Of a stretch of 59,865 nt of DNA, positions 33,816-59,060 are shown one piece after another. A model generated the notes under the pieces. It made no database searches and was not told the origin of the DNA. It saw nothing but the letters and a program-made list of their open reading frames with translations. Location: positions 45,701-105,565 of the forward strand of contig NW_001865059.1 in assembly GCF_000002865.3 (NCBI RefSeq). Direction: 5' to 3'. Within the stretch, counting starts at the first letter, position 1. Each line of letters opens with the position of its first letter. The position numbers and the translations under genes were made by a program. This DNA comes from Monosiga brevicollis MX1. Taxonomy: Eukaryota; Opisthokonta; Choanoflagellata; Craspedida; Salpingoecidae.

Positions 33816-36800
33816 ATGCAGCTTTCTGACCCTGCACGTATGTGTCGCTAGTCAATACCTTTGATTGGATTTGTATTTCTTTTTTTTTTTTTTTTGTTTT
33901 TTTTTGTATTTGTATTTCTTTTTTATTTTTTTTGCGACGCAACCTCCACTGACCTTGCATCTCATCGTCTCATCATGTCTCATACTCCATGTGCCGCGCT
34001 CTGCCCGTGCCCCCATTGCCTTCTCCCTGCTCACCGTTGCAGGCGCCCTGCGGGCGCGAGCTTTCCTCTGCATTGGCCTCGTGATGACTCTTTTGACGAC
34101 GCGCGTCTTTGGTCAGTGTAGCAAGCTGTTGATGCCCTGGTCAACAACCCCATGGAGGCACGTGAGTCGTTTTCAGCCAGAACGCAAATCTCATGATCAT
34201 GTTCCATCGTTTGCCATGCTTTCGTAGGTGCCGCCGACGATACATCTCTACTCGACTGCGTGGGGCTGACAACTGGTGACAGTGCAGTACACGTGTCAGA
34301 AACAATCACCTGTACCATCGTACCACAGGATACTGGCGCACCCACCGCAGTCAACGCGGCCGACTTCTCCAGCACACCAACCCTCGTTGGCGCGACGTTT
34401 CCCAACGGCGCGACTGCCGAATATGTCGTTGATGGCGCCGTTCTTCGCTTCAACGTTACCTCACCAGGCACCATACAAACCGTCTCCATCCATGGACTTT
34501 TGGTTGACGACACCACCACCTTCCCAGCCAGTCCTGTGGAAATGTTCATGATTGAGAACCTTGATGAAACGACCACCTACTCCTGCAATTCACTCCTAAC
34601 CCCATCTACCGTGTTTCGAACCACGGGCGCTGCGCGCCTCGGGCTTTGCACCTTTGATTACCAAGTGGGTGGTGTAGACTCGACAGGTCATGGCTCAGAT
34701 CTATCCATCTCACTCTCACTCGCGGCCACCAATGCAAACGCTGCCCTTGCCGCCCTGGTTGAGGAAGCTGACCACTATCGCAACGCGACAGCCGTCCTCA
34801 CTGCCCCCGACACAGCCGGCGTCTTTTTTACAGTGTCAGCTGCCGTAGTTGGTGGCTCAAGCATTGCTGGCAGCCCCAAGACGTTGTATGCCATTAATGA
34901 GCCAGACACATCCACGACCTTTGCCTGCTCCGGCACCGCCCGACAAGGCGGCACCCTAACATGCGCTCTTCGCCCACGCAAAACCAATACGCGTCAACAA
35001 GGCATTGCTGATGATTTCGTTGTCACCGTTACGTCTGGTGGTAGCATCAGCGCCGCCCTCGCCACGCCCGGTGCTGCTCCAGCCCTCGAACTCAGCGTCA
35101 GCTTTGCTGTCAGTCCGGCTGTCTCAGCCATGACCGTTGAAGTGACAGCACTGGGTTCGGCCTTGGCCAACAGCCCCTACTCCATCCCGGTGTATGGAAC
35201 CCCAACCGGTGACTCGACCTTGGCCTGTGTGGGACAAGAATCGGGGACAGCCATTGTTCGGACCCTTGAGGTTGTCGAGTGCACCATTACCGTCCGCGAT
35301 GGTAGTGGCACAACCCGCGGCCTGGCCTCGGATTTTGGCCAGCCCACCAGTGTCAACGGCCTGTTTATCACTGCCGTGCAACTCCCTACGTCCCCCACTG
35401 ATGGCAGCCAATTCACCTTTACCGTCACGGCAGGCACAACGCTCGGAGCCATGTCCGTGACCGGTTACCTGGCCGATCAGAGCACAACGCTTGCCAACAC
35501 TGTTGATCTGGTCGTTCGTGGTCGTCCCACGACCGACAGCCAGCTCAACTGTGCTGGCCTCCTCACCGGCGACAACACTGTCCGTAAGAATGACATTGTG
35601 GCCTGCAGCATCATCGTCAAAGATGTGGATGGCAACACCACTGGCGAAGCCTCGGACTTTACTGTTGCAGGTAGCACGTTGGTGGAAAGTAATGATGGTG
35701 CTCTCTTTCTCTTCAATAAAACTGCTCCCGCAACCGCAGGCCAAACCATGCTCATTAATGCCTACCTCGAGCTTGGCGCTACCGATGAGAACCTTGATCA
35801 GTCCCCTTTTGCCATGATTGTCCGCGGGCAACCAGATGTCACGTCGACGCTCGACTGCGAGGGTCGCGTGTCTGGCACATCTTTTGTCAAAGTGGGCGAG
35901 ATCATTGATTGCACCATCACCGCTCGCGAAGCTAATGCTCTGACCACAGGCTTTGTCAGCGACTTTTCAGTTCCATCTTTGACTGGTGCTTCATATGTTG
36001 CCGATAGCTTGGCAGCTGCTTCGTCGGGTGCTCGGTTTACCCTGTCTGTGACAACCACAGGCGCCGTTGGAGATACTGTTAGCATCACTGGCCAGATTGG
36101 CAATGGCACGGCCTTTACTCAGAGTGCTTTTGAACTGACCGTTCTCGGAACCCCAACCGCTGCATCTACCCTGTCCTGCGTCGGTCGAGACTCTGGGACA
36201 GCTGTCGTGCGGACGCTCGAGATTGTTGATTGCACAATTGTTGTCCAAGATGGCAGTGGCGCAACTCGCGGTACTGCTGCTGATTTTGGAGTACCCACGA
36301 CGGCCAATGGAACCTTTGTTACGGCCATTGAGCCAGCTGCTTCCCCCAATGACGACGGCTCCCAATTTATCTTCACTGTCACGGCTCCTGCTACGAGTGG
36401 AACCATGTCGGTGACAGGATTTCTTGCGGATCAAGTAACTGAGTTGGCCAACGTTGTAAATCTCGAGGTCCGCGGTCGCCCCACCATCGACAGTACGCTG
36501 GAGTGCATTGGCTTGGCTTCTGGCACTGAATCAGTTCGTGTAGGCGAAACAGCAACTTGTACGCTGACCGTCCGTGACGCCGACGGCACCACTGATGGTG
36601 AAATTGCTGACTTTTCAATTCTGACGGCATCAGACACCAACACGTACACATGGACGGACGTCTCCGGCACTGGCAACGTCTTTGAAGCCAATGTCACCAT
36701 GCCTGCAACGAAAGTTGCTTTTAGCGTCACGACCACGCTGACAGAGAGCGGGCGTGATATCGATGGCAGTCCATTTGTGTTTGATCTACGTGGTGTGCCA

Positions 36801-39800
36801 ACCACCGCCAGTGAGCTCTCATGTGATTCAGCCATCACTGGCAACCAGCAAGCCCGTGCCTCGGAGACCATCGAATGCGTCTTGCTGGTGCAGGATGCCG
36901 GTGGTTCATCGTCCGGCTTTGCCAGCGACTTTGGAGTCACTGTCGATAACGGTGGGGCCGCATCAGCCCTCACGGAGGCCTCTAGCGGCGGTTATTTCAC
37001 TTTTACAGTGGCCGCTGGTACGCAAGTTGAATCAATTACCTCCATCACAGTTACTTTGACCGACGGTGGTGCAGCGCTTGATGGAGGCGCAGAGAATATC
37101 ACTATTTTGGGTACACCCACAGTTGACTCAAACATCTCCTGCGTTGGGGACGTCTCGGGCACCACAAGCATTCAAACTCTCGAGTCGGTCACGTGTACTC
37201 TCTTCATCAATGATGCGAGTGGTTCCACAACCGGCCTGGCTGGTGACTTTGCCATTGCAACGTCAGTCGGCGGTTCAAACATTGGTGTGCCTCGGGCAGT
37301 GCCAGGTCAAAGCTCGCGCCTGACGTTCTCCCTGACAGCGCCCTCCACTGGCGGTGCCACGTTTACAATTACCGGTCGCATGGCCAACACTGATGCGTTT
37401 ACTCAGGGCCCTGTGGCTTTAACGGTGTTGGGCCGTGCCTCGGCAGCTACAACGATGGTTTGCTTGGGCAAACGCTTCAATCTTACCAATGTCGAAATTG
37501 GCGAGACAATTCTGTGCACTTTGACTCTCCGCAATGCGGATGGCGTTTTGGCAGCTCCGACCACGGACTTTAAAGTACCAGAAATCACATCAGGAACAGC
37601 ACCTACCAGTTATATCAGCATCAATGGCGGCTTTCAGGCGACGTTCGAATTTAATAGCAGCGGCACTGTGGGTGATGTTGTACAAGTTGTCGTGCGTCTT
37701 GCCAGCACCAACAGCCCATTGACACAAGGCGAGGAGCGGTTGACAATTGTTGGCACGCCAACGGATGACTCCACCCTCACCTGTGCTGGATATGACACGG
37801 GTCTTGCGTTTGTTCGTGAGAGCGAGAAGGTGCTGTGCACAATTGTTGTGGCTGATGGTAGCGGCGCTACCACCGGTGTTGCGCAAGACTTTGGCACTCC
37901 CATCGTGGTGGGTGGTACAGACCCCGAGCCGGCAACGGGTGTCAGCTACGTGACGGGTGGTGCCACTATGGAGTTTAACCTGACGGCACCCACCACGGAG
38001 GGCAGCGCATTCACCGTGACAGGAGCCTTGGCAGACGCAAGCCTCTTTGCCGAGGGGGCCTTCAGCTTGACGGTCATCGGCACACCCACCTCCGCGTCAA
38101 CGCTCTCCTGTGTGGGCGAAAACAGTGGTACGACATCAGTCCGCGTGAGCGAGCTGGTGTTGTGCACCATCACGGTGCGCGATGCCGATGGCGCTACCAC
38201 TGGTTTGGCCTCTGACTTTGAGTCGCCCACCATTGTGGGCGGGACGGGCCTCACTCCAGCTTTGGGTGTGGTGTATGTCACGGGAGGTCTCACCATGACT
38301 TTCAACGTGACCGCGCCCGCCACCGTTGGGGCCGCGTTCACGATCCTAGGCAACATGGCTGGTGGAAGCCCCTTTGATGAGGGTGTGCTCACCATGACGG
38401 TGGTGGGCACCCCTACGACTGCGTCGACTCTTGACTGTGTGGGTTATCGAAGTGGGACCGCATTTGTGCGCGAGAGCGAGAAGGTGCTGTGTACCATTAC
38501 GGTCCGCGACGATTCAGGTACAACAACCGGCGTGGCGACCGATTTTGCAACGCCGACGGTGGTGGGTGGCACTTCGCTGGAGCCCGCATCTGGTGTGGCA
38601 TATGTAGCGGGAGGCGCCACCATGACCTTTAACGTGACGGCACCGGCGCTTCTGGGCACTACGTTTACGGTGACGGGTGTTTTGGCCGATTTATCAGACT
38701 TTACGCAGGGGGCACTCAGCCTCACTGTGGTTGGTACGCCTGCAAACACTAGCACGATTGCATGTGAGGGCCTGGTCTCACAGGCTGGTACGCTGGTCCG
38801 AGTCAATGAAACAGTCCGCTGTACCGTGGTTTTTCGCGATGTCACGGGAGCAACCACAACGGGTGTGGCCGCTGATATTTTGACAGTGAACATGACCAAC
38901 ACATCTCGCTCGGCGCCGCCAACGGGTGTTACGCTGGCTGGGGACCTGGCCACAGTATTTGTTGATGTTTTGGCTCCGGACACTGTGTGGACAACAGCGA
39001 CCGTAGGTGTTGTTATTTGGAATGGACAAGAGCTCGACTCGGGTGCCGCCACCTTTTCAACCGGTAAACTCGTCTCGGGTTTTTCTTTTGCTACCTATCA
39101 TCCTGCTCTTGCTTGCTTTGTTTGTGTAGTTTTCTGACAGCTTCGATTGCCCGTCTCGTTTGCTAGAGTACTTCCCTGATATTGCTTCCTTCGATTTAAA
39201 TTTTGAAGTTGGTGCGGGCGTGAGCAAGAACACCACGCTGACGCTTCAGCTGCAAGCTGAGGTCAATGCTACGGCATTTGACGTTTCGGCGCTTACGCTT
39301 ATCAATGGGGACGATCCGGAGACCAACTTCACTTTCACGTCCAATACTGTTGTCGCCTCCCCTTTTGATGGCGTCACGCAAGTGCTGCTTGAACTGGATC
39401 AAACAGATGCAGACAACCTCAAGCTGATCCCTTGGTTTTTGGATGGTGCCAACAATATTGCGTTGATTTTGAGTGGTACAAACGGATTATTGAGTTCCAC
39501 CTCCCCGTTTGAAGAGCATCGAGCTGTCACAGTCGCCACCGCTGTGGCCTTGCGCACGCATGTTTCCGATACCACGGCACCCCGAATTGCCGTGGAAGGG
39601 TTTGCAACCTTTGATGCCAACTCGGGCACCATGCAGCTTATTTTCACCGAGCCCATGAATGCATCTTCGGCGGATTGCTCGGCAATTACTCTGGCTTCGC
39701 GCTACAGTGGGGGCACGCAGATAGCTTTGGCTCAGTCATCGACCGTGACCTCTGAGAATGGACGAACAGTTGAGATCTCGCTTTCGTCTTCGGATCGTAG

Positions 39801-42800
39801 CCGGCTCGCACTCGACCCCGAGGTGTGCAAGTTGGCCTCTTCCTGTTGGTTAAGTTTCACGACTGCCTTTATTGATGACATGTCCGGAAACGCTGTGCAA
39901 GCATTGGCGGCAACCCAAGACTTCACTCGTCTGCCCGTCACATTCGTGGCAGACACGAGCGGTCCTGCGGCTCTTGCGTTCGACTTGGATTTGACAGCTG
40001 GTGAGCTCACTCTGACTTTTGACGAGCCAGTCGATGCAAGCAGCATGGATCCTTGTGCCATTGGCTTTGACAGTGGAGTTACAGCTGTGCCAGTGTGTAC
40101 ACCAACCGACCAAACCTCAACGGCCTCAACTGTGGACGGTGATAGCATCACCGTTACCTTGAGCAACCGAGTCTTGAATGCTCTTAAGCTAATTGTGGCT
40201 GCTGAGGGTCACACAAGCTTGACGCTATCTACCAGTTTGGGCATGGTGGAAGACCTATCTGCCAGCCGCAACCTGTCCCCGGCTCAGACCAACATCACTC
40301 TCAGCCAATTTACGGCAGACGCTGTCGCGCCTGTTTTGCAAGCCTTCAGTTTGGACCTTCAGGATCAATTCCTACTCTTAACCTTTGACGAACCCATGCT
40401 TAACGCCACCTGGTTTGTGTTCAATGCGTCCTATCTTCAGCTTGCTTCTGCGGCGTCGTCTGCAAGTGTCACTGTTCATTTGCAGGGCAATGCAGTCGTC
40501 CGCTTGAGCGACACCACCGTGCTGCGAGTCACTTTGGACGATGCGACCACCACCGCCATCAAGTCTGACTCACGCATTGGATCAGCCACAAGCAATACCT
40601 TTTTGTCAGTCACAGCTGGCTTTGCGCAGGATGTGGCCAACAACACACTCGGTTCCGTGAGTGCTCTGCAAGCCAGCTCGATCACCCAAGATACCATCGG
40701 GCCCCAGCTGACTGCTTTCACCATGGATATGCAGTCGGGGGCTTTGCGACTCACTTTTGATGACGTTGTTGACGCATCCACTTTTGATGCAACGGCCTTG
40801 ACCATTCAGAATGCGAGCTCACGTGGGAGCTCAGCATCATATCTACGTCTGAGTGGGGGAAGCGTGCCAGCTAGCAACAGCCGTATCATGGTTGTCACCC
40901 TCTCTGCACTGGACTTGAACACGCTCAAGTCCCAAGTTAACCTTGCACGGGATCAGGCGTCGACTTACTTGACAATGGATGCCACGGCTTTCAATGATGT
41001 CAATGCACCTGCCCGTGATGTCATTGCTATCACCAATGGTGCGGCACAGCTGGCAGCAACATATGTTGCGGACACGACCTCCATTCGCCTGCTGGAAGCG
41101 GGCTACAACGTTGATGCTGGCAACATGCTTCTCTCCTTTTCCGAATTTGTGGTTCTGGAGTCATTCAATGCCACGGGTCTAGAGGCCTCCTTCAATGCCT
41201 CGGGCGTTATTGAAACCTTTGCGCTGACAGCAGCAACTGCTACGCAGGTCTCTTTGACCTCCCTGCTCGTCTCAATCCCCGTTTCACTGCTGGATGACTT
41301 TAAACGGGCATCTTCACTGTCCCTGGGCAACGGCAGTCTGGCCACGCCAGCCACACTTGTGACGGATGCTTTCACCAACCCTCTGTCTGCAGAACCCGCC
41401 TTTCCGCTTGTGCGTAGTGCCGATGACAGCACCTCCCCTTCTCTGGTGAGCATCGCACTTGACGTCAATACCGGTCTCTTGAAACTCAGCACCTCAGAGT
41501 CCATCTCGCTCGTGTCGGTCAACTTGACCCGGATCTCGCTGCGTGGCGCCGCTTCCTACCCGCTGACGGGCAGTCAACTGGATGGTCAGGCCTCTGCTCG
41601 TGATGTGAACATCACTTTGTCCTTGAGCTTGCTAAACCGCATCAAGGCTGACAACAATAGTCTGGATACGTTTGTGCTCGCTGTTGAAGCGTCAGCCTTC
41701 GTCGACTCTTACGCAAATGGCAACGATGCCAACGAGACATTGCCCATTGAGACATTCCAGGCTGACACAATCAGCCCGCTTGCAGAAAGCGGGGTCATTG
41801 ATTTGGACAGTGGCTTGCTCTCACTCTTTTTCAACGAGCCAATTGATCTGGCTAGCCTTAACGCGAGCTACTTGACCTTGACCAACTTGAACGGCAGTGT
41901 TACAGCGGTGGCGGCAGCGGACAGCACCTTAACTCAGGATAAGCGAAACCTTACCATCACTCTGTCCTCGGGCGTCATGGAGGCCATCAAGCTCAACCCT
42001 GCCATCTGCCTTCCTACCGACACATGTGCGGTCAACGTCACAGCGGAAGGATTGGCAGACACCAGCGGTAATCTGATTGCCTTCACAAGCCTTGTCCTTG
42101 CGGTGCAACCCGACGTGACGCCCCCCGTCATTACAGCAATGTCTTTCAACGTGTCATCTCGCATACTCTCTCTGTCATTGTCAGAGGCCATCAGCGTTGC
42201 AAGCGTTGACCTCACGGGCATCAGCACAGCCCAGGGGGGGCTTGACGTGAGCGTGTATACAACCGCTCCGCGAACAACCGTGCTTGAGCTCGTCATCAAT
42301 CGTACAGCGTTGGCCGCGCTTCAGCTCACGCATGATTTGTTCATTGATGCGAGTTCATCCACTGTTGTGCTGGCCAACGCCTTTTTAGCGGACGTTTACG
42401 GAAACCTCCTGGCTGGCGCCACTGTACCCTGTGACACCTATCAGCAAGACAACATTATTCCCGTGGTGACAGCAGTGCGTGCTCGCATGATCGGTGGGGC
42501 CAAGCCATTGCGCTTGATTTTTGAATTTTCCGAAATTGTCAATGCGTCCACTTTTGCTTCGAGCGCCGTTTTCCTTCCATTTCATGGCGTGGCCCTCCCT
42601 GATGGTACAGCCTCGTCAAATGTGGACGGCAACGTGGAATATGTCTTATCCAACGCTGGCTATGCCGTTCTCCATGCACTGCGACCTATTCCTTTTGCCA
42701 ACTCTTCGCTCTCCAACGTCAACATTACTGCAGATGCAGTACTTGACGTGGCGGGCAACGGCGTGGCTGCCCAAGAAGTGACGGCAACGCTCGATGAAGT

Positions 42801-45800
42801 GGACTTTGTGGCGCCCGAGTTGGTATCGGGCACGCTTGCCTTTGACACCGCCACTCTGACGGTCAGTTTTTCTGAAAATGTGGCCGTTTCAACAGCAACC
42901 ATCTCCTTTGCTGTCCATGGTTTTGAAGTCGGTAACTTTACGGTAGATGTCCAAGCAGGATCCCTGGTGGGATTTGTCAATCCTGTAGTTGCTGATCTGA
43001 CCGCAGACGCTTTGAATGTGCTCAAGACGAAGCCAAGCATTGTTTTGGAGAGCGAGCTTACCAGCACCTTGTTTACTCTTGACGTTGCCGACGATGCCGA
43101 CAACGCGCTGCAGCTGCCCGTCACCATAAATTGGACCATTGATGCAGACACCGTGGCCCCCACTGTCACTGCGTACGCACTTGATCTGAGTACCAGCACG
43201 CTGACCCTCAACTTTAGCGAAACGGTGAATTTAACCTCGCTTGTGGCCTCCAGTCTGCGCATTGGCACTGGTGCGGCAGCTAGCAACTCCTTGGCGCTGC
43301 AAGAACTTGTTTGTGCCGAGAATTACGGCGTCAGTTGTGACTTTGTCTTGTCCGCCGCTGATCTCTTTGCTCTGCAATCGGCGGCACACGTGGGAGTTAA
43401 TGCCAGCACCTCCCTTCTGTATTTGGCATCTGGCTTTGTGCAAGATGTCTTTGGCAATGCAGCCGCCGCTGATCTCACGGGCCTGGCACCCACCTCTTTT
43501 ACGGCGGATATGGTGCGCCCCAGTGTAACTAGCTTCAGCTTGGACCTCAATGTTTCAACCCTGACCATCGCTTTCACCGAACCCGTGACTGAGTTTAACG
43601 CCTCGTTAGTGCATGTTGGCTTTGGTGGGACAAGTCTCGCCGTGAGTGGCACCGCTACAATTGCCAGCGCGCTTGTGACGCTGNNNNNNNNNNNNNNNNN
43701 NNNNNNNNNNNNNNNNNNNNNNNNNNNNNNNNNATCTTTTCACTCCACCCCACGGTCTGCAATAGCACTGATCGTTGTTTGCTCACCTGGGAGGACGATG
43801 CAGTGTGGGACACAGCTCTGAATGGAGTATTGGCCGGCAATCGCAGCGTTGACGTTCTTGTGCTGGACACGATTCCGCCGCGCTTGCTGGCGTTTACACG
43901 TATCGACTTGGACACCAGCGAAGTCACGCTACGCTTCAGCGAAGTCCTGGACACTGCTTCTTTGGTACCAGGCGAGATTACCCTGCAAACGCTTTTTGAG
44001 GATCCGTCCTCGACCGTGACACTATCCAACTTTACAGTTGCTCTTGGAAGTGTAAATTCGCGGTTGCTTGTTTTGTCATTGGGAGTGCTTGACATTAATG
44101 CCATCAAGCGAGACCCGCTGGTCTGCAGCTACCGTGCTAGCTGCTACGTGACCTTCTCCGCGGCCTTTGGCCAGGACACAAGTGGAAATGCAATTGTAGC
44201 GACGGGACAAACCGCCCCAGGATACCTGGTTTCCACATTCGTGGGGGACAGCGTCAAGCCCACACTCACAGGCGCAAATCTCAACTTGACAACGGGCGTT
44301 CTGGGCTTAACTTTTGATGAGCCCATCAATGACGGCAAACTGTTTGTGGGTCGTTTTTCGATCGTGGACGGGATCGCATCTGTAGTGGTTGCTCTCTCGA
44401 GTGGTTTCGCCACCACTGTACATGCCAATTCACTTGGTGCAAGCATACAGCTTTCAACAGAGGCCCTCAATGCCGTGAAGCTGCAGAAGGAGAACGTGGC
44501 CGATGTGAGTGCAACAACTGGGGCGTTCCGTGATCTTGCCAACCCAGCAAATGAGGCGATTGCGCAGATCACGTCCCTTCTCCTTCTACCAGATACAAGC
44601 GCACCTAACCTTGTGTCGTTCACGCTGGACCTTGACGCCAATGCGCTGCTCATGACTTTTGATGAGCCCATGCAAGATGATTTCAATGGAACGTTCTTGA
44701 CATTGCGTGAAACTTCCGCCATCGCTAACGCTACGCAGAGCTACAATTTGACTGCTTCGCAGTTTCTCTGGAGCGCCGACGGCCTTAGCGTCATCCTTAC
44801 CCTTGACGCTGCTGATGTGGGTGCCCTCAAGAGCAATGCCAAGCTAGGAACGCTAGTGACAAACACGTTTCTCTATGGTTTCGATTTTGCCCAAGACGTC
44901 AGTGGCAATAGCGTGGCTGCAATTGCAGGGCGCCAGGCTGAGGCGGTGGTCCGGGACGATACTTTTACGCAGCTGGTAGCCAATCACCTTAACCTTACAG
45001 CCGCCACGCTACGCCTGGTGTTTGACGACGCGGTTAATGCTTCTACCTTGACACCAAGCGCGCTGGAGCTGCGCAGCAACCGCACCTCCACAGCCCAAAC
45101 CATCACGTTGACAAGCTCTACCGGTCGGGCGATTGCTGGTGCGCCTTTTGAGGTGATGATTGAGCTGTCAGCAGCTGACTTGCATCGCATCCAAAGGCAA
45201 TCCCAGTTGGCGCGTTCCATTGCAACCACCTACATCGCTTTTACTAGCGCCTTGCTTGATGATGTCAATGGCGCGCCCGTTGTGGCAGTGCTTGGAACGC
45301 GTGCGCAACAGGCGACCTCATATGTGACTGATGGCACCTCACCACAGATTGCTGCCTGGACATTTGATGCAGATGCCATGCAACTTACTCTCAATTTCTC
45401 AGAACCGATTGTTCTCGGCAATCTATCGGCGCTTCAACTGGTTGAACTTGAGGAGCTTGACCTCAATTCTTCAAGCTTTAATCAGCTCAATTTCCTAGCG
45501 TATACTGTGGACCTGAGTCCATCTCAAGTGGCTGCTGTTCAGGCTAGCCTGCTTTTTAAAAATGCTAGCACCTCTGTGTTGCGTGTTGCCCCAGATTTTG
45601 CGGTTGATCTGTTTGGCAACGCCATGCTTGCGGAAACAGTGGTTGCCAGTGAGTATGTGGTCGACTCGACGCCTTCAACGGTACAGTCCTTGCTCGTCGA
45701 CCTTAGCCTGGGAAGTGTCCTCCTAACCTTTGATGAGGTCGTTGTCCCAACAAACGGAAGCGTGGCGCTTATCAGTATTGCAGAGTCTGGCAATGTGACT

Positions 45801-48800
45801 CTTCCCGTTCGTGCGCTGGGTTTGACGCCCAATGCCACGCAATGGTTCCAGATTGATGCTGCCGCGTTTTTGGAGCTTTTGGGCACAAGTTTCGAGACAG
45901 ACAATGCGACATTCTTTTTCATCCCAGACTTGCTTGTACAGGACATGGCGGGTGTGCCCAACGTGGAGCATACAGCTGATGTGTTTACCGTGACCCCCGA
46001 TCTCGTTGCTCCCGTTCCAGTGGAGGCTGTTGTGGATATGAACATTCGGGCCCTTGACATTGAGTTTTCCGAGCCCGTCAATGCGCAATCGGCCAATGGC
46101 AGTGCATTTGTTCTTGCAGGCGCAGCGTCGGGGCAGACGATCCGTCTGACAGATGCGACGGCGTCAACACCTTCCCTGCCTGTGCTTCGCCTGACGTTTA
46201 CGCCTGCCATTACTGAATTCATCCTCGCGCAAGATGAGGTCGTCTTCGTCATTGGCAACACGAGTGTGCAGCTTTCTGCCGGTGCTGTGGCTGATCGTCG
46301 CAACAACTCTGTGGGTGCCTCGAGTATCGTGCTGCACGACGTTTTGGATGATGTGACGCCCCCTGTTTTACAAAATTGGTCGCTTGACCTGAACAATGGC
46401 CTGTTCTCATTCACTTTTGACGAGTCGGTCAACGCCAGCCTTCTCAACTTTACAGGCGTTTATTTGCGCAACTCGGTGACGGCGTACAATTTCTCGCTCA
46501 CCGATCTGACCGTTACAGGTGGATTCATTGCCCTCCAAGTTTCTGCCGCGCTTCCTGCATCCCGCCTCACAACCTTGCTCTTTGATGAACCTCATATCTG
46601 GGCCAACCAGTCGCGACTAGCCTTTCCGGCCACTTTTGCAACGGATCGCTTTGAAAATCAAATTTTGGCTGTGCCTGCACCCGGCATACAAGCCACGTCC
46701 GTGATCCCGGATACGACGGCGCCTGTGCTGCTATCTAGTGCGATCAACTTGTCGACTGGAGTTCTGGGACTGCGATTTTCCGAACCTGTAGCTCTCGACT
46801 CTTTCAACGCCTCGCGCGTGCAGCTGGAGGGCGGCAGTCCTGCCACCAACGTTGTTGTGGTTGACAACAATGTGACGCTCAGTGATGAAGGCACGCTCAT
46901 CGAGATCATCTTGTCCCGCGATACTCTTGCGGCCGTGCAGCGCCATCTTGTGCTTCCCGGTGGCGGTACTCCCAATATCAACGTCAGCTTGCTTACAGAT
47001 AGCGTGGCTGACACGCGCGATAATTGGGCCATCACCCAAGGTGTTTCGTGCAGTGTGGCTGCTGATGTTATTGCGCCTACTTTGATCGGATTCTCCGTTG
47101 ATCTCAATGCTCCTTACCTTGCGCTCACTTTTTCCGAGCCCATGGATTTGGCTAGCACCAATATTCCTGCCTTGGTTCTGTTGAGCTCGGCCGTCGACGC
47201 CACTCAGACGCAGCTGGCCAGTACCAATTTGACGTTTACAGATGCTCTCCATCGAGAAGCGTGGATTGTCCTGGCGGATGAGGACGTCACCAGCATTATG
47301 GCACGCAGTGGCTTCTTCACATCCGTGAACGATGCATATTTACTTGTAAGCTCACCCTTTCTTGCCGATCGGAGTGGCAATGCCATTTTCAATGCAACGC
47401 TAAACGCCACTGCTTTTGCCCGCGTGGATCGCACGCCAACGTTGATCAGCGCGCTGTTAGACATGAGCACGGCAACACTTAATCTCACGTTCTCCGAGGT
47501 TCTTGCCCCATCTTCGAGCAACCTGTCTCGAGTGGCTTTGGCCACACCCGACAACACCACATTTTACCTCTCGGCAAACAGCACCGTTGACACAGCGTCC
47601 CCTTCAGCTATCCTGACGATTCGTCTTGGTCTTAGTGACTACGACGGTGTGCTGGCGGCGGGCATTGCCACCTCGGCCGCCACGGTGCTTTGGCTAGAGC
47701 CGGCTGCATTCGAGACTCGGTTTGCTGTGGGCAATGTTGCAACGCAGCGCCCTCTTGATTCATACACCGGGGATGCGTCCACGCCAGCACTGGTGAGCTT
47801 TAGCCTAGACATGAATGAGCGTGTACTACTGCTCACTTTTACCAAGGTCATCAACGTCAGCAGCTTTCAAGCAGCAGCATTTGCGCTGCAGCAGACTGCC
47901 TTTGCCACCAGTTCGGTCCGCCTGGGGTCGCTGGACCTGCCTGCAACTAGCCTGAATACGCGTTTCGTTGCCATTGATATAAGTGTGGCATCGTATAGTG
48001 ACCTGGCACTTGCAAACACTGTGTGCCGCTCGCTTGCGTCCTGCTTCTTGATCATCGATGCAAATGTGGCTGGCAACGACATGTTTGGCTTGTCCATTGC
48101 GGCTCAAAGCAACGGAGCCGCCCAAGCTGCCGCTGAATTGGTGTTGGACACCACGCCACCTCGTATCGCAGAGTTGCAAATTAATTTGACATCGCGCTCT
48201 GTGCACTTGGTATTTGATGAGCCCATTGATGCAACTGCTTTGAATGCGTCGGCTTTTGCGTTGGGTGCTGCCGAGAATTCCTTCGAAGCCATGACAAGTT
48301 TCCCTGGCCTTGCCGTGGGCACATCTGATGTACAATTCAGTCTGTCCAATCCTGACTTTGATGCCGTGGTTACGAATGACGCGATTTTGCGTAACCTATC
48401 CACTGCAGGCATTATATTTCTAGACACGCCTGCAACCTTGGTAGATGTTTTTGGCAACGCTGTGCTACGGCCCTCCTTTGCTGCGGCCACGTCCTTTACT
48501 GAGGATGCCCGCGCGCCAACAGCCATTAGCTTCTCGGTCAGCATTGACCAGGAACTAACGGTCACCATCACCTTTGACGAACCGCCGCGCGCACTGCTGA
48601 CAACGCCCACGCTGGTGCTGACCAATGCTTCTACGTCACTGACACTTGGTGACCTGACTTTCCTTTCTCTCGACGGGCGTGATGTGACATTTGTCGTCTC
48701 TGCGGCCCGAGGCCGCGAGGCCAAGGATTTGGGCATTGCCACCTGGACTGCAGCCACGGCACAGGTTCCTGCGGAGATGGTGACAGATTTTGCTGGCAAC

Positions 48801-51800
48801 AACAACAGCCTCATTGCCGATCTAGGTCCCGTGCAGACATCTGTGGTGGATGCCACAGCACCAATCCTACAGAATGTGGTTCTGGACTTTGATGCCTTAT
48901 CCTTGCGCCTTGATTTTGATGAGCCCCTGCTCTCGCGGGGTGTCAATCTTTCTGGTCTTGCGCTACAAAATAACGGAGATGTGGTGGCCTTGACCAGCGC
49001 CTTGGATTTTACACTCAACTTTTCGAGCAGCACACTGTTTGTTGACCTGTCCCCAATCGGCCTCGAGCTCAAAAATGTAAGCTTGAATTTTGAAGCTGAT
49101 CCTGCCAACACTGTGTTGGCCATTGCAAGCGGGGCATACGCTGATCTGTACACCAATGCCGTGGTTGGACCAGCCACAGCGGCCATCAACCAGACTGTTG
49201 CTGATTCGACCGCACCTCTCATTATCGCAGTCGAAGTGGATACCTCTCAGGGAACACTGTCCGTGGTCACCAATGAGCCTGTGGCAACGCCAGATCTTCG
49301 CTACAGTGTGTCCATCACGAGCGGTGGCACTACCATGCACCTGGCACCGGCTACCACTCAGTACCTACCTTCCCCTCGACACGGCGTCTTTGGTGACCTG
49401 GACCCTAGTGAAGTGGCTCAAATCAAATTGATTTTTACAAGCTGCAACGACAATTGCACCGGTTTTGTGCAAGCCAGCACCGTTTCGGACACGGTGGGTC
49501 TGGATAACATCAACACAACCGTGACCTTGACCCTCGTTCCAGACAGCATTCCCCCTGTCATTACTGCCAAGGTGCTGGACATGGAAAATTTGACCTTGTC
49601 ACTGGTCTTTGACGAGCCTCTGAACACGGCGCAAGCTGTATCGGGCTTTGTGACCTTCCAAAACCAACCAAACAGCGCGAGTGCCACATATACGGTCTCT
49701 GTCACGCCAATTAGCGTAACCTATCTTTCCGCATACAGCATTCAGATTTTGCTGAGTGACGCCGATGGCAATGCGCTTAAGGAGCAGGCCGGCTTGGCAA
49801 CCTCCACATCCAACACCTACCTCGCCCTGGATCTGACGGTGACCGACGTGCGAGGTAATCAGGTTGTTGCAGTCCCAACAAGTGCAGCTCTTGGCGGTGT
49901 GGTTGTCCAGGCCGATGGAGAAGAGCCACAACTACTGTCAGCCTCCTTGAATTTTGAGTCTCGCCTGCTGATTCTTACCTTTGATGAAACCATCAATGCC
50001 AGCTCCGTGCGCATTGCAGAACTCACCTTGCATGCGACAAGCACAATGCCTGCGCCCTCCTACCAACTCTCTGATTTAACCATCAGCTCTGCCGTTGTGG
50101 GCTCCGACTATGTACTTTCCCTTGGGTTCTCAAGTGTCGACAAAGATGGCATGCTGACCGCTGGTGTGGGCTTGCCCGAGGCTTACGTCGCAATTTCATC
50201 GGCCTTCGCAAGTGACATGTCAGGACTTGCAGTAGAGGCTTTAACGTTTGGTGTCAACCCCTTGGCCGTTAGTCCAATAATTGCTGATACCACTGCTCCC
50301 ACCATTGCCGCCATCAATGTGACAGTCAGTTCTGGCGAGCTTGACTTGAGCTTTTCAGAAGCAATCAACGCAAGTTCATTGGATGAGACCTTGCTTCATG
50401 TCGGTTCAGCCACCGGCATTGCCACAGAATTTGTTCCCGTCTATTCCTATGTCGCCCTCGCTGGTGTGCGCACCCTTCACCTTGAGATGGATGCCACTTC
50501 AACAGCACAGCTCAAACAACTGGTTGTGGCTGGCCAGCTTCGCTTTAGCGCAGCTGCTAATCTTGTGTCTGACTTATTTGGCAACCCCAGTGTACCTTTG
50601 GTAAATGTGACGCCTGCCGCCGTGGCGCCCGATCAGACTGCGCCGACCCTGCTCAGCTGTACCATTGATGTAGCAACGGAGACGTTGACTGTTTCCTTCG
50701 ACGAGCCCGTCTTCGTGAACGCAAGTGAATCTATCGAGCTGGGTAATGCGAGCAACGTTTGGATGCCATTGACGGATCCCATTCCCAGCGTCAGTGGAGC
50801 AACTGTTGCCGTTGCTCTTGACACTCTGACTCTGAATCGCGTCAAGGCCAACTTCTTTGGACCCGAGCTGCTGTGCCGTGCTGGGGCAACTGCACCCGTG
50901 TGGGATTTGTTTGGCAATGCGCCGGGGGCTGCGCTTGGTCCGCAAAACGTAACTTTAACGCCCGATGTGTCGGCGCCGACTCTTCTCGCAGTGACACTCA
51001 ACCTCAGCTCTGCTACTCTTGTACTAGAGTTTGACGAGGCCATTGACATCAATCTCACCGCCGCAAACCTGACACTTGAGACAGCTGATCTTGTGGTTGC
51101 TGTGACTGTTGACGGAGTTCAGCAGGACCTTGCTACCTCAACACTTGAGCTACATCTTGACCCCGGCAGCATGAATAGCATTCGCGTGAGCACCCGTCTG
51201 CTGAATTCAACTGTGTTCCTTTATTATTCGCCAGCCGCACTGGCAGACTTTGCTGGTAATGAGTTGGTCAACAACGGCAATGCTACTCTTCAGAGCGTCT
51301 TCCCTGATGAAGTGAGCCCCAGTGTGGTGTCGATTGTGATGGACATGACGGCCCAGATCGTCGTGATGGAGTTTGATGAGCCTGTTAAGGGTCTCAACCT
51401 GTCGATGCTGCGTCTGGGGTCGACATCAGCCACCGCCTCGGCTAATGCACTGGATTTACATAATTCTAGCACCGATGACCAGCTCACATACACTCTGCAA
51501 CTAACCACGGCGGGCTTTGAAGCACTTGCTATGGATCCGAGTGTGGCCACCTCTGTCTCCAACACGTTCTTTTTCTGGCCTGCTGAATTTGCGCAAGATT
51601 ATTTCGACAACACCCTTCAGCCTGCCAACAGTGTGGGCGTGGCGGCCACCACTGTAGTCAATGACACGGTGGCGCCGCGCATTGTAGCGTTTGACCTCAA
51701 CGCGGATGATGGCACCCTCGCCGTGACTTTTAGCGAGCCCATGAGTCAGGCCGAGGTTCCTCTGTTGAATCTGAGTGCAACCAATAGCTCCCTCGGCCTG

Positions 51801-54800
51801 CCGATTGATGGCGCTTCCGGCAGCTGGAACGCACGACGAACCACGTATACGTTTGTTGTTTCTGCGCCAATTCTTGCGGATCTCATTTTGGATGAGATTT
51901 GCGATACAGAAGCACGCTGTTTCCTGCGGTGGTCACCCGAAGCCGCTTTTGATTATGCCGCCAATGCTCTGGTGGCCCTGGAGCCAGAGGGCAACCTGGC
52001 TGTACAGACATTCACGCCCGACTCCACACCCCCGGCATTGACAGCCTTTGTATCCATGGACATGAACACGGGTACTGTCAACCTTTCGTTCTCTGAGAAC
52101 ATGCGAGCCAGCAGCTTTGTTGCAAGCGGTTTGCGCTTCTCTTCTTTTTACAACGTGCCCACATTCTTCTCACCCAACAACGTGAGCGTGCTGACGCCCA
52201 ACGGGGTGAATCAAAGTATTGCTCTGAGCGACAGTGACCTGCACCGCCTCAAATTGGCCGGCCTGTGCTCCAGCAACAGCGCCTGCTGGTTGTCAATGAC
52301 TCTTGGGACCGCCACAGACATGGCCGGCAATGCGGTGCAGGCTGTGTCCAGCTCGACCTTTGATCCACGTCGAGTGCCCGTCGAGTTTCTTGCAGACACA
52401 ACACGCCCTCAGTTGATCCAGGTGGACTTTGCGTACACGGGAAGTAATTCTGTGCAGCTTAACCTTACCTTTGATGAGCCCATGAACGGTGTCTCCTTAC
52501 GCACCGACGTTTTGACCGTGGGCTCAAGCGCAACAGCCACAGTGGCTTTGACGACGAGTTTGGACACCACACCTGCTGATGGCCTTACTCTTTCAGCTGT
52601 GCTTAATCGTGCTGACTTTTTGGCCATCGCAGCTCATGCGACCATTGGTTTGGACGCTGGTACCACCAGGTTTGCCTGCACGGCGCTGTTGGGTGAAGAT
52701 TTGGCTGGCAATGCCGTTCAGCCTCGCACCTTCGCCGCGCAAACTGAGCTGCAAGTTACCAACTTCATTCCAGACACTCGACGACCACTGTTGGCTGAGT
52801 TTGTGACGTATGACGCCACTGATGGTGGTCTTATTCTGCAGTTTGACGAGCCCATGCAAGCTGCCATCCTCAATTTGAGCGGACTTGTCCTATCAAACGG
52901 CACACTCGACTACATTCTCACTGCAGCCACGGTCAGCTACAGCGAGGCAACAGCGTATGCCAAACGTCGCATCAAAATCACGCCCTCGGGTCTTGACCTG
53001 CAGTACCTGCGTCTAACGCCACTCTTCTTCAAGTCGGTTGCAACTACATATGCCCGGATCAATGCTGAGACATTCATGGATCCCTTCTCCAATAGCAATG
53101 AGGCGAGTGTGGCCCTGCAGGCCAGCAACTTTGTGGCCGACACAACCTCCGCCAGCCTCGTTAATTTTACCTTGGACTTGAACCAATCCTTGCTCTCGCT
53201 CACCTTCGACGACATTGTAAAGAGTGACAGCCTGGACCCCACGCGCATATCGCTTCAAAATACTCAGGCAGGCACCAACGGTGCAGCTGGTCGCTACACG
53301 TTGACGGACGTCACGGTGGTCTCGTCGATTGACTACGTGGTTGACGCCTTCTTGTCCGTGGTGGATCTGGCCAATCTTCAGCTCGCCACAAACCTGGCCC
53401 GTACTCGTGCAGACACCTATCTGGTGATTGCCGCAGATGCTCTGGCCGATTCTTACAACAATCCCATCCAGGCAGTGGTTGCCAGTAATGCGCGCCAGGC
53501 TGCGCTTGTCGTTCCCGACGCCATCGCACCCCGCGCCGTGGGTGTTGAGCTTGACATGGGCGCCCGCGTGCTAAACCTGTCTTTCTCCGAGCCCACAGAC
53601 GTGCAAAACATCAGTGGCATGGCCATTGGGGCCTATCCCAGTGACATGGTCAACATTGCTGGCTCCTTTGCGGCCACAGATAATTTGAGGCTGTCTGGTA
53701 CACTTACACTTGATGCTGCTACGATTGACGACTTGAATCGACGCGGCCTTTGTCGCTCGGCTGCCACGTGCACGCTTGTGCTCGGGGCTGGCAGCCTAGT
53801 TGATTATCGGGATAATGAACTAGCCGCCGTAGCAGAGGTGGCGGTTGACACCTTGGTAGCAGACGTGAGGGCACCTACATTGCTTTCGTTTGGCTTAAAT
53901 ACGAACAGTGGCACCATTTCCTTGACCTTTGATGAAGTGGTCAATGGCACCTCCTTGGATGTCGAGGCACTGGCACTGGCAGCGACGCCAAGCAACATTC
54001 CACTGGCTGGCGTGGTGCAGGGGGCCCTTGCCCTAGACACCACCCTTACCGTGACATTGGACGCCAGTGCCCTCGATTCCATTCGCTTGCAGCCGCCGGT
54101 CGGCCGCAGTACCTCAAGCACTACTTTGTCGGGCACGGCATTTGTCCGTGACTCTTGGGGTAACGTCCACGCAACCCTGTCTTCACAAGTGGCCACAACG
54201 GTGGTATTGGATACCACGCCGCCCTTGGCACAAGCCGCCGTTCTCAACTTGACGTCCAATCAGCTGATCATCATTGTCAATGAGCCTGTGGCCGTGGCCG
54301 CCACACAACCAGAGCTCGTTGCTCTTCGCACTGTGGTCCAAGGCAGCGACGTGGTAGTGGCTTTGACCGCTGCCGATACAACCGTATCGTCCGCTAATGG
54401 TAACACACTTCGCATCGATTTGTCTGCCATCACCTTGAACAAGATTCTCGAGGTTCCAAGTTTTGCTGCACCAGGTCAAACAGTCCGACTCACACATACC
54501 AGCGGTGCCTTTGTGGATATGTTTGGCAATGACGCCGCCGCTCGTTCCGTTGGCAATGGACTGGAGTTGACAAATGTTGTCCCAGATACTAATGCCCCCT
54601 CCCTGGTGAGCTTCAGTGCTGACCTCAATGCTACCACTTTGCGCCTTACTTTTGATGAGCCTGTCAACGCCAGCACAGCCAACTTCAGCAAGTTGTTGCT
54701 TGTACGGGAGCAGAACCAGGTCTCCACCGTTTTCCGCTTGTCCAGCGCCGAGGTGCAAGCAGAAACACTATATGTGGTGGTAGTGTATCTCAGCTCAGGG

Positions 54801-56750
54801 GACGTAGACCGTCTCAATGCCATTGGCAACCTTTATTCAAGTCAAGGCACCAGTTACATGGCGCTCGATGCCGGCTTTGTGCAAGATTTGCAGGGCAACG
54901 ATGCCCTTGTCTTGGACCTCGCCAACGCGCTTCTGGCCCATTCGTTTGCTGCAGATGAAACGTCCGGTGTTTTGGTGGGTGCGCAGATCTCGCTGACCAC
55001 TGCCGAGCTTGTGTTGACATTCAGCGAGGTTGTCAACGCCAGCTCTTTGAACGTTTCTCGTCTCGCGGTGGGACCAAGGGCGATGGCCTTGGGCAGCGTG
55101 ACCCTTCAAAGCTCTGCGGCCAGCAGTCCAACTGATAGTGCGACCACACTGACTATCTCACTGACCCAAAAGGATGTCAAGGCACTCAAGCGCGAGGGTG
55201 TGGCGTTTGCACCAGACCGTGCGTTTGTGCAGGCGTTGGCTGGTGCGGTTGTGGACGTCTCGGGCGTCATGGTTCGTACTTCAGGCTTCGTTGCAGCATC
55301 GCCAGCAGTTGGGGCAAGCGGAGATGTGGCTGTGAGCAACGTCACGCTAGATTTCGACGCACGCCAGCTTATTGTCACCTTTGATGATGATGTCGACCCC
55401 ACTAGCGTGAACGTGTCTGCGTTTGCGCTGTCCGACAACACCACCACATTGGCGCTGATCGACTCGTTTGTGTGTGGTAGCTGTCCGGGCAACACGTACC
55501 AGGCCACTGCTTGCACTGAGGATGCTCCTGCGGTGTGCACACCTTGCACACCGTGTGCTGGCACTGAATACGAAGTTGCCCCTTGCAACGCTACACATGA
55601 CACTACGTGTGCATCGTGCTCCACTTGTGGAATTGGAGAGTTTGTGCTCCAAGCGTGCTCGCCCTTTGAGGACACTCGCTGCGCTACTTGCAGTGGAGCC
55701 TGCGAAAGCGGATTCTATGAGGCAGCAGCCTGCAACTCCGTCACCGATCGCTTGTGTGCACCATGCACTGCCTGCGGGGACGGAGAGTACACAGTGTCGG
55801 CATGCAACGCAACACACAATGCGGTATGTGCAGCGTGCAGCACCTGTTCTGGTTCACAATACGAGTCGAGTGCATGCTGGAGTGGCAGCGACACTGTATG
55901 CTCAGATTGTGGCAGCTGTGCTGAGGGAGAGTTTGAAGTTTCGCCCTGTGATGGAGCCAATGCTGAGGTTTGCGCCACCTGCACCACGTGCTCCGCTGGC
56001 TATTATGCTGAAACTGCATGCTCAGCAAACGCGAATGCGGAATGCAGCCCATGCACAGCGTGTGGTCTTGGAGAGTTTGTGAGTCAGGCTTGTAATGCTA
56101 CCCACGACGCCATCTGTACGACATGCACGTCGTGTGGCCCAGGAACGTACCAGTCTGCGCCATGCACCGAGAGTAGCGACTCGGAATGCACAGCTTGTGG
56201 GGCGCACTGCACATTGTGTGTCGATGGCTCGCAGTGCACAGCCTGCGAGGGTGGATACGCTCTGCATGACGGAGAGTGTGTGGACACATGCCCCACGGGT
56301 ACCTTCAATGACACCACCACGGGCACCTGTGCTTTGTGCGATGCTTCATGCCAAAGTTGCACGGGCTCGGCCGTTGACGAATGCGACGGGTGTTATAACA
56401 ACATGTACTTGCAAGCGGGTCGCTGCGAGAGCAGTTGTGGTACAGGCCAGTATAACAGGACCGTATCAGGCATCGGTCAGACTTGCGTGGCATGCAACTC
56501 TTCATGCACAGAATGCTATGGTGGCAGCGCCGACAACTGTCTGACTTGCGATGTTGGTGAGGTTTTGATCGACCACAGCTGTGCACCAGCTTGTCCGGCA
56601 GGTTATCGGGAAGAAAATAGCCGCTGCTGGCCATGTACTGTGGGCTGTGATGCCTGCTCCGCAAGTGCGTGCACAGAGTGTGGTTCAGGCTACATCCTGG
56701 ACAACGGCGTCTGCACGATGGCGTGCGAAAACAGTTTTTATGCAGCTTGA
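33816..56750 (+). CDS. Giant secreted multi-repeat protein (filamin-like + SbsA-like + TNFR/furin-like)
   Basis: Model: exons 33816-33837, 34043-34111, 34228-39063 and 39167-56750 (with a 50-N gap at 43684-43733), all in phase; about 7,490 aa plus the gap. Exons 1-2 encode a signal peptide (MQLSDPARALRARAFLCIGL then VMTLLTTRVFG). Next come 15 repeats of about 105 residues: GTPTxxSTLxCVG, then VRxxExVLCTIxVRDxxG, then FNVTAP, often ending SPFxxxVxG as in filamin Ig-like domains, with a conserved Cys pair. A 103-nt intron (39064-39166; donor GTAAAC, branch CTGAC, acceptor CTAG) leads to about 46 Ig-like repeats of the SbsA-like family seen at 2-11929. From about 55470 follow 10 TNFR-like repeats, then about 5 furin-like repeats from about 56190. 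There is no TM helix; the stop falls inside a furin-like unit. It is probably an extracellular or coat adhesin (inference). The first two exons are less certain than the rest. Confidence 0.85.
39064..39166 (+). other. Intron separating the two Ig-like repeat classes
   Basis: A 103-nt phase-1 intron. The upstream frame ends at 39063 (first base of a Glu codon) and the downstream frame resumes with AG TAC TTC at 39167. It contains a TTCTGAC branch-like site at 39132-39138. Splicing gives FSTEYFPDIASFD without a break. It falls exactly at the switch from filamin-like to SbsA-like repeats. Confidence 0.9.
43684..43733. other. Assembly gap (50 N) inside the giant exon
   Basis: The frame before the gap (ending ...IASALVTL) and after it (starting IFSLHPTVCNSTDRC) both fit the repeat but are offset. 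The gap size is therefore nominal and the frame change is an artefact of the placeholder. The missing part is likely small, since the two sides supply the middle and end of one repeat. Confidence 0.95.
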
Positions 56751-57238
56751 ACGTCATAGCACATCTTATTATCGTAATTCTTGCTCTGTGTGACTACATC
56801 GTCATACATGTCTGTCTTTTGGGGTCATTTGCTTTGGTTGTTGTTTAATTGGCTCCGCACAAGGTAAAGAGGGCTTTGCCCTTGCTTGGCCCGACAGTGG
56901 GATGTGTCTCTTGTTTTTCCCCGTCTTCATTATCTAGTAGCTTGCGCTGAACCAAAGCCGCAGCTGTTCTTGTTCTCGTTGTCGTTGTTGTTTTTTGACC
57001 AGATGAGACTCTCCCAAGGTGAAATCTCGGCTGCCTGTGTGTGCGTGTGCGAGTGCCTGTGCTGCAGCCGTATTTTCTTTCTTGGTGTTCCCCTTTACCA
57101 ACCAGCACAGACCAACCGTGTTCATGTTTTCCCATAATCGAAGGAATGATCTGCATGACACACATGCGACTGTTGTTTCGCCTTGAAGACTCGTCTATTT
57201 TCTGGGAGTCGGCAAGAGCCCCAACGCTAGCTATAATG
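56751..57238. other. Intergenic, nothing recognised
   Basis: This follows the giant gene's stop and presumably includes its 3' UTR. Low-complexity T-rich stretches occur. No coding exon or RNA gene was recognised on either strand. Confidence 0.5.
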
Positions 57239-57620
57239 TCACGCCAAAGCAAGCCGTGCTATTAGATGCCTTGAGCAGTTAGATACACTCAAACTCGGTA
57301 GCCGACCGTGACCATGGAGAGAACGCGCAAAGGCGTGGATGCTGAGAAGCACAGAGCGCATCGTGTAGGCGGGCGACCAGCTGGCAATGTCTTTGCTCCA
57401 ATCGGTCTGGATCTCGTTGTAGCCTGATAGGATGAAGAGACAACGACGACCTGCTTCCACCTGAGGGTGGAGGGGAAGCTAGCAGTTGGAGGTAAAAGGG
57501 GTGTAGCATGCAGCCTATGATCGCCGAAGAAAAAGAAATTGATGGGTCATTCCAGCATGTTGTCTTCGCAGGCAGTGATGGCGAACTGTTCAGAGGGCCC
57601 ATCATGATTTTGCGCAAATC
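57239..57620 (-). pseudogene. Possible degenerate ubiquitin-conjugating (E2/UEV-like) fragment
   Basis: On the minus strand, a frame near 57635-57590 reads RRDLRKIMMGP. After a one-base shift comes PSEQFAITACEDNMLE and then TGA where E2 folds usually have Trp (DNLFEW). At 57460-57239, after an acceptor-like CCTCAG, an open stretch reads GRRCLFIL, then W, then SPAYTMRSVLLSIHAF. This is like the active-site Cys segment and the WSPAxTxxSVLLSI helix of E2 enzymes. The middle of the fold (the YPFxPP region) is absent. The frameshift, nonsense codon and missing middle suggest a broken copy. A poorly read or spliced gene, or chance resemblance, remain possible. Confidence 0.35.
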
Positions 57621-58247
57621 GCGGCGTACGTGCGGCTCAAGACGACACTTGTCTTTATTTTTCCATTCTTTTCGATTTTATTTTTATTTTTTTTTATATT
57701 TTTTTTTTTTTTTTTTAAAACATGGCCATTTCACCTGCATCCGTGTTGATCGTGCAGCCAACTGAGGCCTCGACCCAAACTCGAAGGCTTACCTGTCAGT
57801 GTATGCGATTGATCAGTCATCAGTCACGATGATAGGTCGTAAGAGCTCATTTGGGCTCATTGGTAGGAAGCGCCCAGTTTGTTGGACGATGATAGTGTGC
57901 ATCGTTCCCGTAACAGAGTTGGCTGCATGCGAGTTCAGGTCATGATGTGTTTGATGTTGCTGCTGCCATCGGGGCTCCTGCCATCCCATATGGGACTTGA
58001 CTTGAGACTTGAGATCAGGTGTAAATAGGTGAATGAATAAGGTGTAATTGATGAATAACCAGAGAACTGGCTTGTGCGTGGGGGCGCCAAGCCGTGAATC
58101 AGGTTGAGAGACAGGCAACGAGGCATGAATCAAGTTCATTTTGTTGGTGAAGGAAAGAGCGAGCGGGCAGGGTCCTTGCAGATTTGGCTCTCAGAGCTCT
58201 TCAGACTGGTCGCCAGCCAGTGTTTATTTTATGCTACTGGCTCGTAG
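57621..58247. other. Intergenic, nothing recognised
   Basis: It holds an AT/T-rich tract (about 57665-57720) and otherwise mixed sequence. The open frame at 57813-58139 on the minus strand has no recognisable motifs. Confidence 0.5.
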
Positions 58248-59011: not shown

Positions 59012-59060
59012 GGGGGTATACTAGCCGCAGACGATCCAGGGTAGATGAAAGAGGATCAGA

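Follow-up and report, generated by a model that had tools for sequence, protein, structure and literature searches.

A four-class repeat gene of about 7,500 codons in Monosiga brevicollis and a family of giant loci with SbsA-like arrays

Organisation of the giant gene

The stretch of Monosiga brevicollis DNA analysed here (59,865 nucleotides; contig C36, positions 45701-105565) is referred to as the window, and all coordinates are window positions. The genome is that of M. brevicollis or of a very close strain: a PDZ stretch on contig C54 agrees at 68 of 68 residues with the PDB chain mbDLG, a protein of this species. Its forward strand carries a giant gene composed of four classes of repeat: 15 two-cysteine immunoglobulin-like (Ig-like) repeats, designated the first class, then 46 SbsA-like repeats, a row of TNFR-type cysteine-rich units and a short row of furin-like units (Table 1). 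The stop-free frames 34197-39137, 39130-43821 and 43599-56750 join into one coding sequence, and the spliced product comprises 7,486 or 7,501 residues with a gap of N left out. The giant gene is confirmed as a four-class array in about 7,500 codons. It is one of six giant loci found in this genome with SbsA-like arrays, the others being designated D, C41b, C41a, C55 and C51. An earlier sequence-only reading of this DNA had described four repeat classes in one spliced frame behind a signal peptide, in a unicellular holozoan, with 15, about 46 and 10 copies of the first three classes and about 7,500 residues in all. These points are borne out for this choanoflagellate gene, whose frame includes an inferred intron and a run of N; the same reading presented the gene alone, where it belongs to a family.

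Repeats were located with profiles (hidden Markov models, HMMs) built from the window's own sequence, which returned 15 first-class and 46 SbsA-like repeats; the count of 10 TNFR units was made by eye. None of the three HMMs found a repeat at E < 1e-3 in control sequences (a reversed and a shuffled copy for each of four pieces). The coding pieces have stop-free lengths of 1,611, 1,517 and 4,338 residues, against 301 residues for the longest chance stretch when 50 sequences of 23 kb from a first-order Markov model were read in their three forward frames. The longest piece is a single open frame from 43734 to the stop at 56748, so most of the SbsA-like array and the TNFR and furin-like units lie in one intron-free frame.

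Two small exons are proposed at the 5' end. Joined, they read MQLSDPARALRARAFLCIGLVMTLLTTRVFG, a signal-peptide-like start that runs in frame into the exon at 34228, and the signal peptide of the earlier reading is upheld in this form. A run of N interrupts SbsA-like repeat 13, and whole repeats may conceivably be missing there as well.

Table 1. Features of the giant gene and of the neighbouring family member D in the window
Feature	Position	Strand	Basis and remarks
Member D, SbsA-like repeats, visible 3,975 residues	2..11929	+	Own HMM; ends in half repeat (model 1-32), then TAA
Proposed exon 1, with start codon and initial residues	33816..33837	+	GT donor at 33838; splice site inferred
Proposed exon 2, signal-peptide hydrophobic core	34043..34111	+	AG acceptor ending 34042, donor GTCAGT at 34112, frame kept; inferred
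Exon 3, 15 Ig-like repeats	34228..39071	+	Repeats 34230-39041; exon end 39063 or 39071
Exon 4, SbsA-like array, TNFR array and furin-like units	39130..56750	+	Start 39130 or 39167; stop TGA 56748; sole interruption is the N run
46 SbsA-like (Big_5-type) repeats	39223..55469	+	Own HMM; last is an N-terminal half, model 1-42
Run of 50 N in SbsA-like repeat 13	43684..43733		Flanks are model 1-48 before and 68-98 after (latter E 0.0045) of one repeat
10 TNFR-type cysteine-rich units	55470..56198	+	PF00020 133.6 bits, E=2.9e-39, 9 stretches
Furin-like units, 3 complete and one cut	56199..56747	+	PF15913 E=2.8e-8, 4 stretches; count by eye

First-class repeats

The first-class repeats are about 107 residues each and score 58.0 to 126.8 bits with their own HMM. 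Each contains exactly two cysteines (30 in the 15 repeats), and both cysteine columns are kept throughout. The name filamin-like, given to them in the earlier reading, is not supported as a family label. The Pfam scan of the first-class exon does not include Filamin (PF00630) at E <= 1, and a search of single repeats lists one of the 15, with an E of 0.17. A genome search with the same family, in which three candidates were scored, gave one match at E <= 0.001, located on another contig. The structural model of a repeat pair (pLDDT 78) has InvE as its top fold match (E 4.3e-5), followed by a chain of the Toxoplasma pre-conoid ring, with InvD at rank 9; filamin C is a weaker match at rank 15 (E 4e-3). 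The nearest solved fold is therefore that of InvE, a bacterial adhesin. What these repeats share with the filamin repeat is an Ig-like sandwich of about 100 residues, whereas the two conserved cysteines per repeat and the signal-peptide-like start set the giant gene apart from it.

SbsA-like array

The SbsA-like array comprises 12 repeats in 39223-43470, one across the N run, and 32 full repeats and one half repeat in 43902-55469; its first repeat spans model positions 5-83. Across 73 aligned copies (of 80 matches from the giant gene and D, short ones excluded) the repeats are diverse, with a mean column identity of 24%, and the conserved residues are D (67 copies), F (64 copies), E (63 copies) and D (70 copies). 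The relevant Pfam family is Big_5 (PF13205), an SbsA-type Ig-like domain with a cut-off of 23.6 bits. The giant gene itself reaches 21.2 bits in one of its three array pieces, with the other two not listed, and 9 of the 73 single repeats of the giant gene and D match at E <= 0.01. The cut-off is passed by D (71.3 bits) and by pieces of C41b (41.7), C55 (38.1) and C51 (24.3), and one own HMM matches the repeats of both the giant gene and D. SbsA-like, as the earlier reading had it, is thus a fair label at the level of the family, by way of member D, although the giant gene falls short of the cut-off. It differs from Big_5 proteins in its eukaryotic host, in its 46 copies per chain and in how seldom its single repeats match the family.

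The model of two SbsA-like repeats has a mean pLDDT of 91.4, and its Foldseek matches include chains of the S-layer protein SbsC at ranks 2, 9 and 17, amid EpoR and antibody chains. Judged from the models, both the first-class and the SbsA-like repeats are Ig-like.

The two SbsA stretches of the giant gene contain 33 and 87 sequons, compared with 17.5 and 41.3 in shuffled sequences (z 4.7 and 8.3), and the SbsA part of D has about twice the shuffled expectation (z 8.4). Part of this excess falls at two positions of the repeat motif (27 and 23 of the 73 copies). The glycosylation sites of the earlier reading are accordingly seen in the SbsA stretches, but their excess is unclear in the first-class array.

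Cysteine-rich end

The TNFR units are about 24 residues long, and the ten counted by eye compare with nine stretches reported for PF00020. The furin-like part scores 34.3 bits with Furin-like_2 (PF15913; cut-off 28) and is matched by R-spondin chains from E 3.1e-4. A furin-like array had been foreseen with about five copies; the array is present, but its units number three and a cut fourth.

A family of six giant loci

At E <= 0.001, genome searches with SbsA-like queries from the giant gene, C55 and D returned 56, 132 and 81 matches, every one of them within the six loci; these searches score the best candidates only, so weaker members could be missed. The sister loci have open frames with reported lengths between 4,017 and 10,718 codons, and N is present in some of these. 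Member D is the upstream neighbour of the giant gene within the family, and its 5' part lies within 15.2 kb of N before the window. A frame upstream with an apparent length of 9,040 codons is not real throughout, its 5' part being N. The frame of C41a also contains N.

The order of the arrays and their partner domains vary between loci where the ends were seen. C41b consists of a single N-free open frame (5,081 codons), in which TNFR units are followed by 40 SbsA-like matches, the reverse of the order in the giant gene, and a signal-peptide-like reading lies just upstream. In C55 (a reported frame of 10,648 codons, read in parts) the array is followed by three TIG stretches and a Calx-beta domain, and other Ig-like sequence was seen by eye ahead of it. 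The frame of C51 (10,718 codons, also read in parts) has Ig_GEX2_N, Big_1 and Invasin_D3 before the array, all weak (E 0.004 to 0.008, below the cut-offs). First-class repeats appear to be particular to the giant gene: all eight genome matches fall within it, and none was found in the fetched pieces of other loci (C55, C51 and C41a in part).

The best match of 37 of the 44 SbsA copies of the giant gene lies in another member, which indicates that divergence of the copies preceded or accompanied the separation of the genes. Orthology of the whole arrays of the giant gene and D was rejected, as the best matches of the 30 D repeats are scattered over the giant gene in no order discernible by eye. 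Within D, the segments 952-1251 and 9532-9831, which are 8.58 kb apart, differ at three of 300 bases; unless this is an assembly fault, it reflects a recent conversion or duplication. When the TNFR arrays were compared (the 15 best of 137 matches, and others), C41b came second to locus L024, with 189 versus 210 bits, and a reciprocal split of one ancestor into the giant gene and C41b was not adopted for this reason.

Half repeats at array ends

Several arrays begin or end within a repeat, and the halves that remain are complementary. The array of the giant gene breaks off in its last repeat and passes straight into the TNFR units, and that of D ends in an N-terminal half repeat followed by its stop. 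The array of C41b starts with a C-terminal half (model positions 51-96) right after the TNFR units and ends with an N-terminal one (1-36), and that of C51 starts with a C-terminal half (50-96) behind a probable intron. The cut falls at the same loop in three of five array ends and two of four array starts (the ends of C41a and the start of D were unseen); the C55 array is bounded by full repeats on either side, and the last repeat of C51 is complete. The missing first half of the C51 repeat was not found in the fetched 5.8 kb, nor the second halves of the last D and C41b repeats in downstream scans at E 0.01. Cut out and scored within a five-sequence database, the half repeats reach 17.5 to 32.8 bits; in the whole C41b frame and a larger database, the starting half scores 9.7 bits (E 0.35) and the ending half 16.2 bits (E 0.003).

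The simplest explanation is a duplicated unit out of phase with the folding unit. Partial repeats complete one another in spectrin tetramers. A comparable split-domain complementation, between two molecules or two family members, would allow head-to-tail polymerisation into an endless coat fibre, an idea to which we give very little credence.

Relatives elsewhere

Patterns for single proteins gave five matches for the first class (in viral_contigs) and one and 19 for the SbsA-like repeats (in viral_contigs and genome_contigs), with no confirmed relative among them. No relative of either repeat class was found in plasmids by tblastn at E <= 0.01, NCBIfam listed nothing for three pieces of the giant gene, and the viral fold library gave one uninformative match at E <= 0.001. 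Pfam scans of the giant gene's frames show no Cadherin (PF00028) at E <= 1, nor does Pfam list any bacterial secretion or retention module in the gene.

No description of the family of SbsA-like arrays was found in open-licence PMC full texts; subscription papers and genome-portal gene models lay outside this search. A paper on horizontal transfer in S. rosetta (PMC7971027) contains passages on adhesion, but does not mention Ig-like, giant, S-layer or tandem, and PMC6792448 mentions neither these terms nor adhesion.

Proposed function and alternatives

The interpretation favoured here, with confidence somewhat above even, is that one M. brevicollis gene encodes a secreted fibre of about 7,500 residues for coat formation, attachment or prey contact, and that it belongs to a domain-shuffled family. 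The signal-peptide-like start would direct secretion. An Ig-like bead is about 4 nm long, and the 61 Ig-like beads would form a rod of roughly 0.2-0.25 micrometre, probably glycosylated along its SbsA part, while the modules at its end would bind partners. The conserved acidic residues close to the junctions between domains may serve as calcium sites that make the rod stiffer. Outside the cell, such a protein could act as a long fibre of the coat, for attachment or for contact with prey, and a giant adhesin or coat fibre, as the earlier reading suggested, is its most likely role. Amplification of repeats and swapping of end modules would account for the growth of the family.

Giant adhesins with arrays of Ig-like extender domains occur in bacteria, among them SiiE, LapA and the ice-binding adhesin of Marinomonas. 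The giant gene would work like these, encoding a long secreted chain of Ig beads of bacterial type that carries specialised modules at its end. It differs in its signal-peptide-like start, its introns, its excess of sequons and its TNFR and furin-like ends, and it sits in a choanoflagellate genome with signal-peptide-like exons.

Several observations weigh against the proposed fibre. The gene is known here from its sequence alone. Neither the first-class array (18 sequons compared with 12.8 in shuffles, z 1.7) nor the cysteine-rich end (z 1.4) shows a clear sequon excess, and calcium binding has conservation of the acids as its sole basis. The SbsA-like pair model has no Foldseek match at E <= 0.001; SbsC (2ra1) is a weak match at rank 2 (E 1.3e-3, probability 0.99, TM 0.31), behind EpoR. 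Many in-frame splice pairs are available for the intron at the junction of the first-class and SbsA-like parts, with none clearly best. The reading frame stops inside a furin unit, no convincing membrane segment is present in the frame before the stop, and the post-gap part has one borderline hydrophobic window (1.92) at residue 203.

The state of the 3' end bears on whether the protein is instead a membrane receptor. In that case the furin end would continue, by way of an unfound exon or across an error in the sequence, to a membrane segment and tail like those of receptors with furin repeats. We consider this rather unlikely, though it has the best standing among the alternatives. Since the stop truncates the last furin unit and no convincing anchor is present, the true 3' end may have been missed, and TNFR matches occur at many other loci in this genome. 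Another frame contains, at 56702-56845, a hydrophobic stretch with a 19-residue mean of 2.78; this stretch is ambiguous, as a nearby T-rich non-coding frame scores equally high at 2.88. No convincing further exon was found after the stop, and no furin-like continuation was seen by eye in the forward frames of 56700-58260. The membrane segment and signalling tail that follow the array of a TNF receptor were not found in the giant gene's frame, which a missed exon could explain.

The junction intron raises the question of two genes, a secreted protein of first-class repeats and a separate SbsA-TNFR-furin gene, and we judge this improbable. The absence of a single best splice pair and the confinement of first-class repeats to this locus are consistent with it. 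However, the two likeliest pairs (donor 39064 with acceptor 39166, and donor 39072 with acceptor 39129) both keep the frame and place the two exons just 103 or 58 bases apart. A stop lies ahead of the SbsA exon, and no Met occurs before residue 167 when the stretch is read from 39133, so the SbsA part is hardly a gene by itself; C51 and C55 likewise seem to have other Ig-like sequence upstream of their arrays. A decaying or unexpressed gene is most improbable: the N run, the cut last unit and the lack of any record beyond the DNA are compatible with it, but the coding pieces far exceed chance stop-free stretches and the cysteines of the first-class repeats are intact.

The secreted fibre thus remains the preferred reading. 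Animals have no closer living relatives than choanoflagellates, and the make-up of their coats and adhesive fibres bears on the origin of the animal matrix. If the interpretation is correct, giant genes in which TNFR, furin, TIG and Calx-beta modules are combined with Ig arrays of bacterial type would be a clear example, outside animals, of a matrix built through the growth of repeats and the exchange of modules. The giant loci are named targets for proteomics and knock-out.

Neighbouring and other loci

Between D and the giant gene, the forward strand (18938-28133) encodes an apparent mucin-like membrane glycoprotein with long Ser/Thr-rich frames and tandem repeats. One cysteine stretch in it is of TNFR type (29.9 bits with PF00020). 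By eye, the sequence also shows a membrane segment, as well as a tail that bears PPEY-type and YxPP motifs. Just downstream of C41b, locus L061 (contig C41, about 673.2 kb) contains from about base 8212 a frame with a signal-like start and DVNDNAPVF motifs, which we take to be cadherin-like.

TNFR matches also occur in open frames of 3,960 to 5,401 codons on contigs C31, C34, C11, C4 and C22 (N content unchecked), and giant extracellular frames may therefore be common in this genome. Two loci, L008 (contig C46) and L009 (contig C32), carry closely similar segment copies with a Big_5 domain that is not arrayed, and with a C-terminal membrane segment identified by eye. At the end of the window, a coding sequence on the reverse strand (58100-59865) resembles a GNAT-type acetyltransferase by eye.

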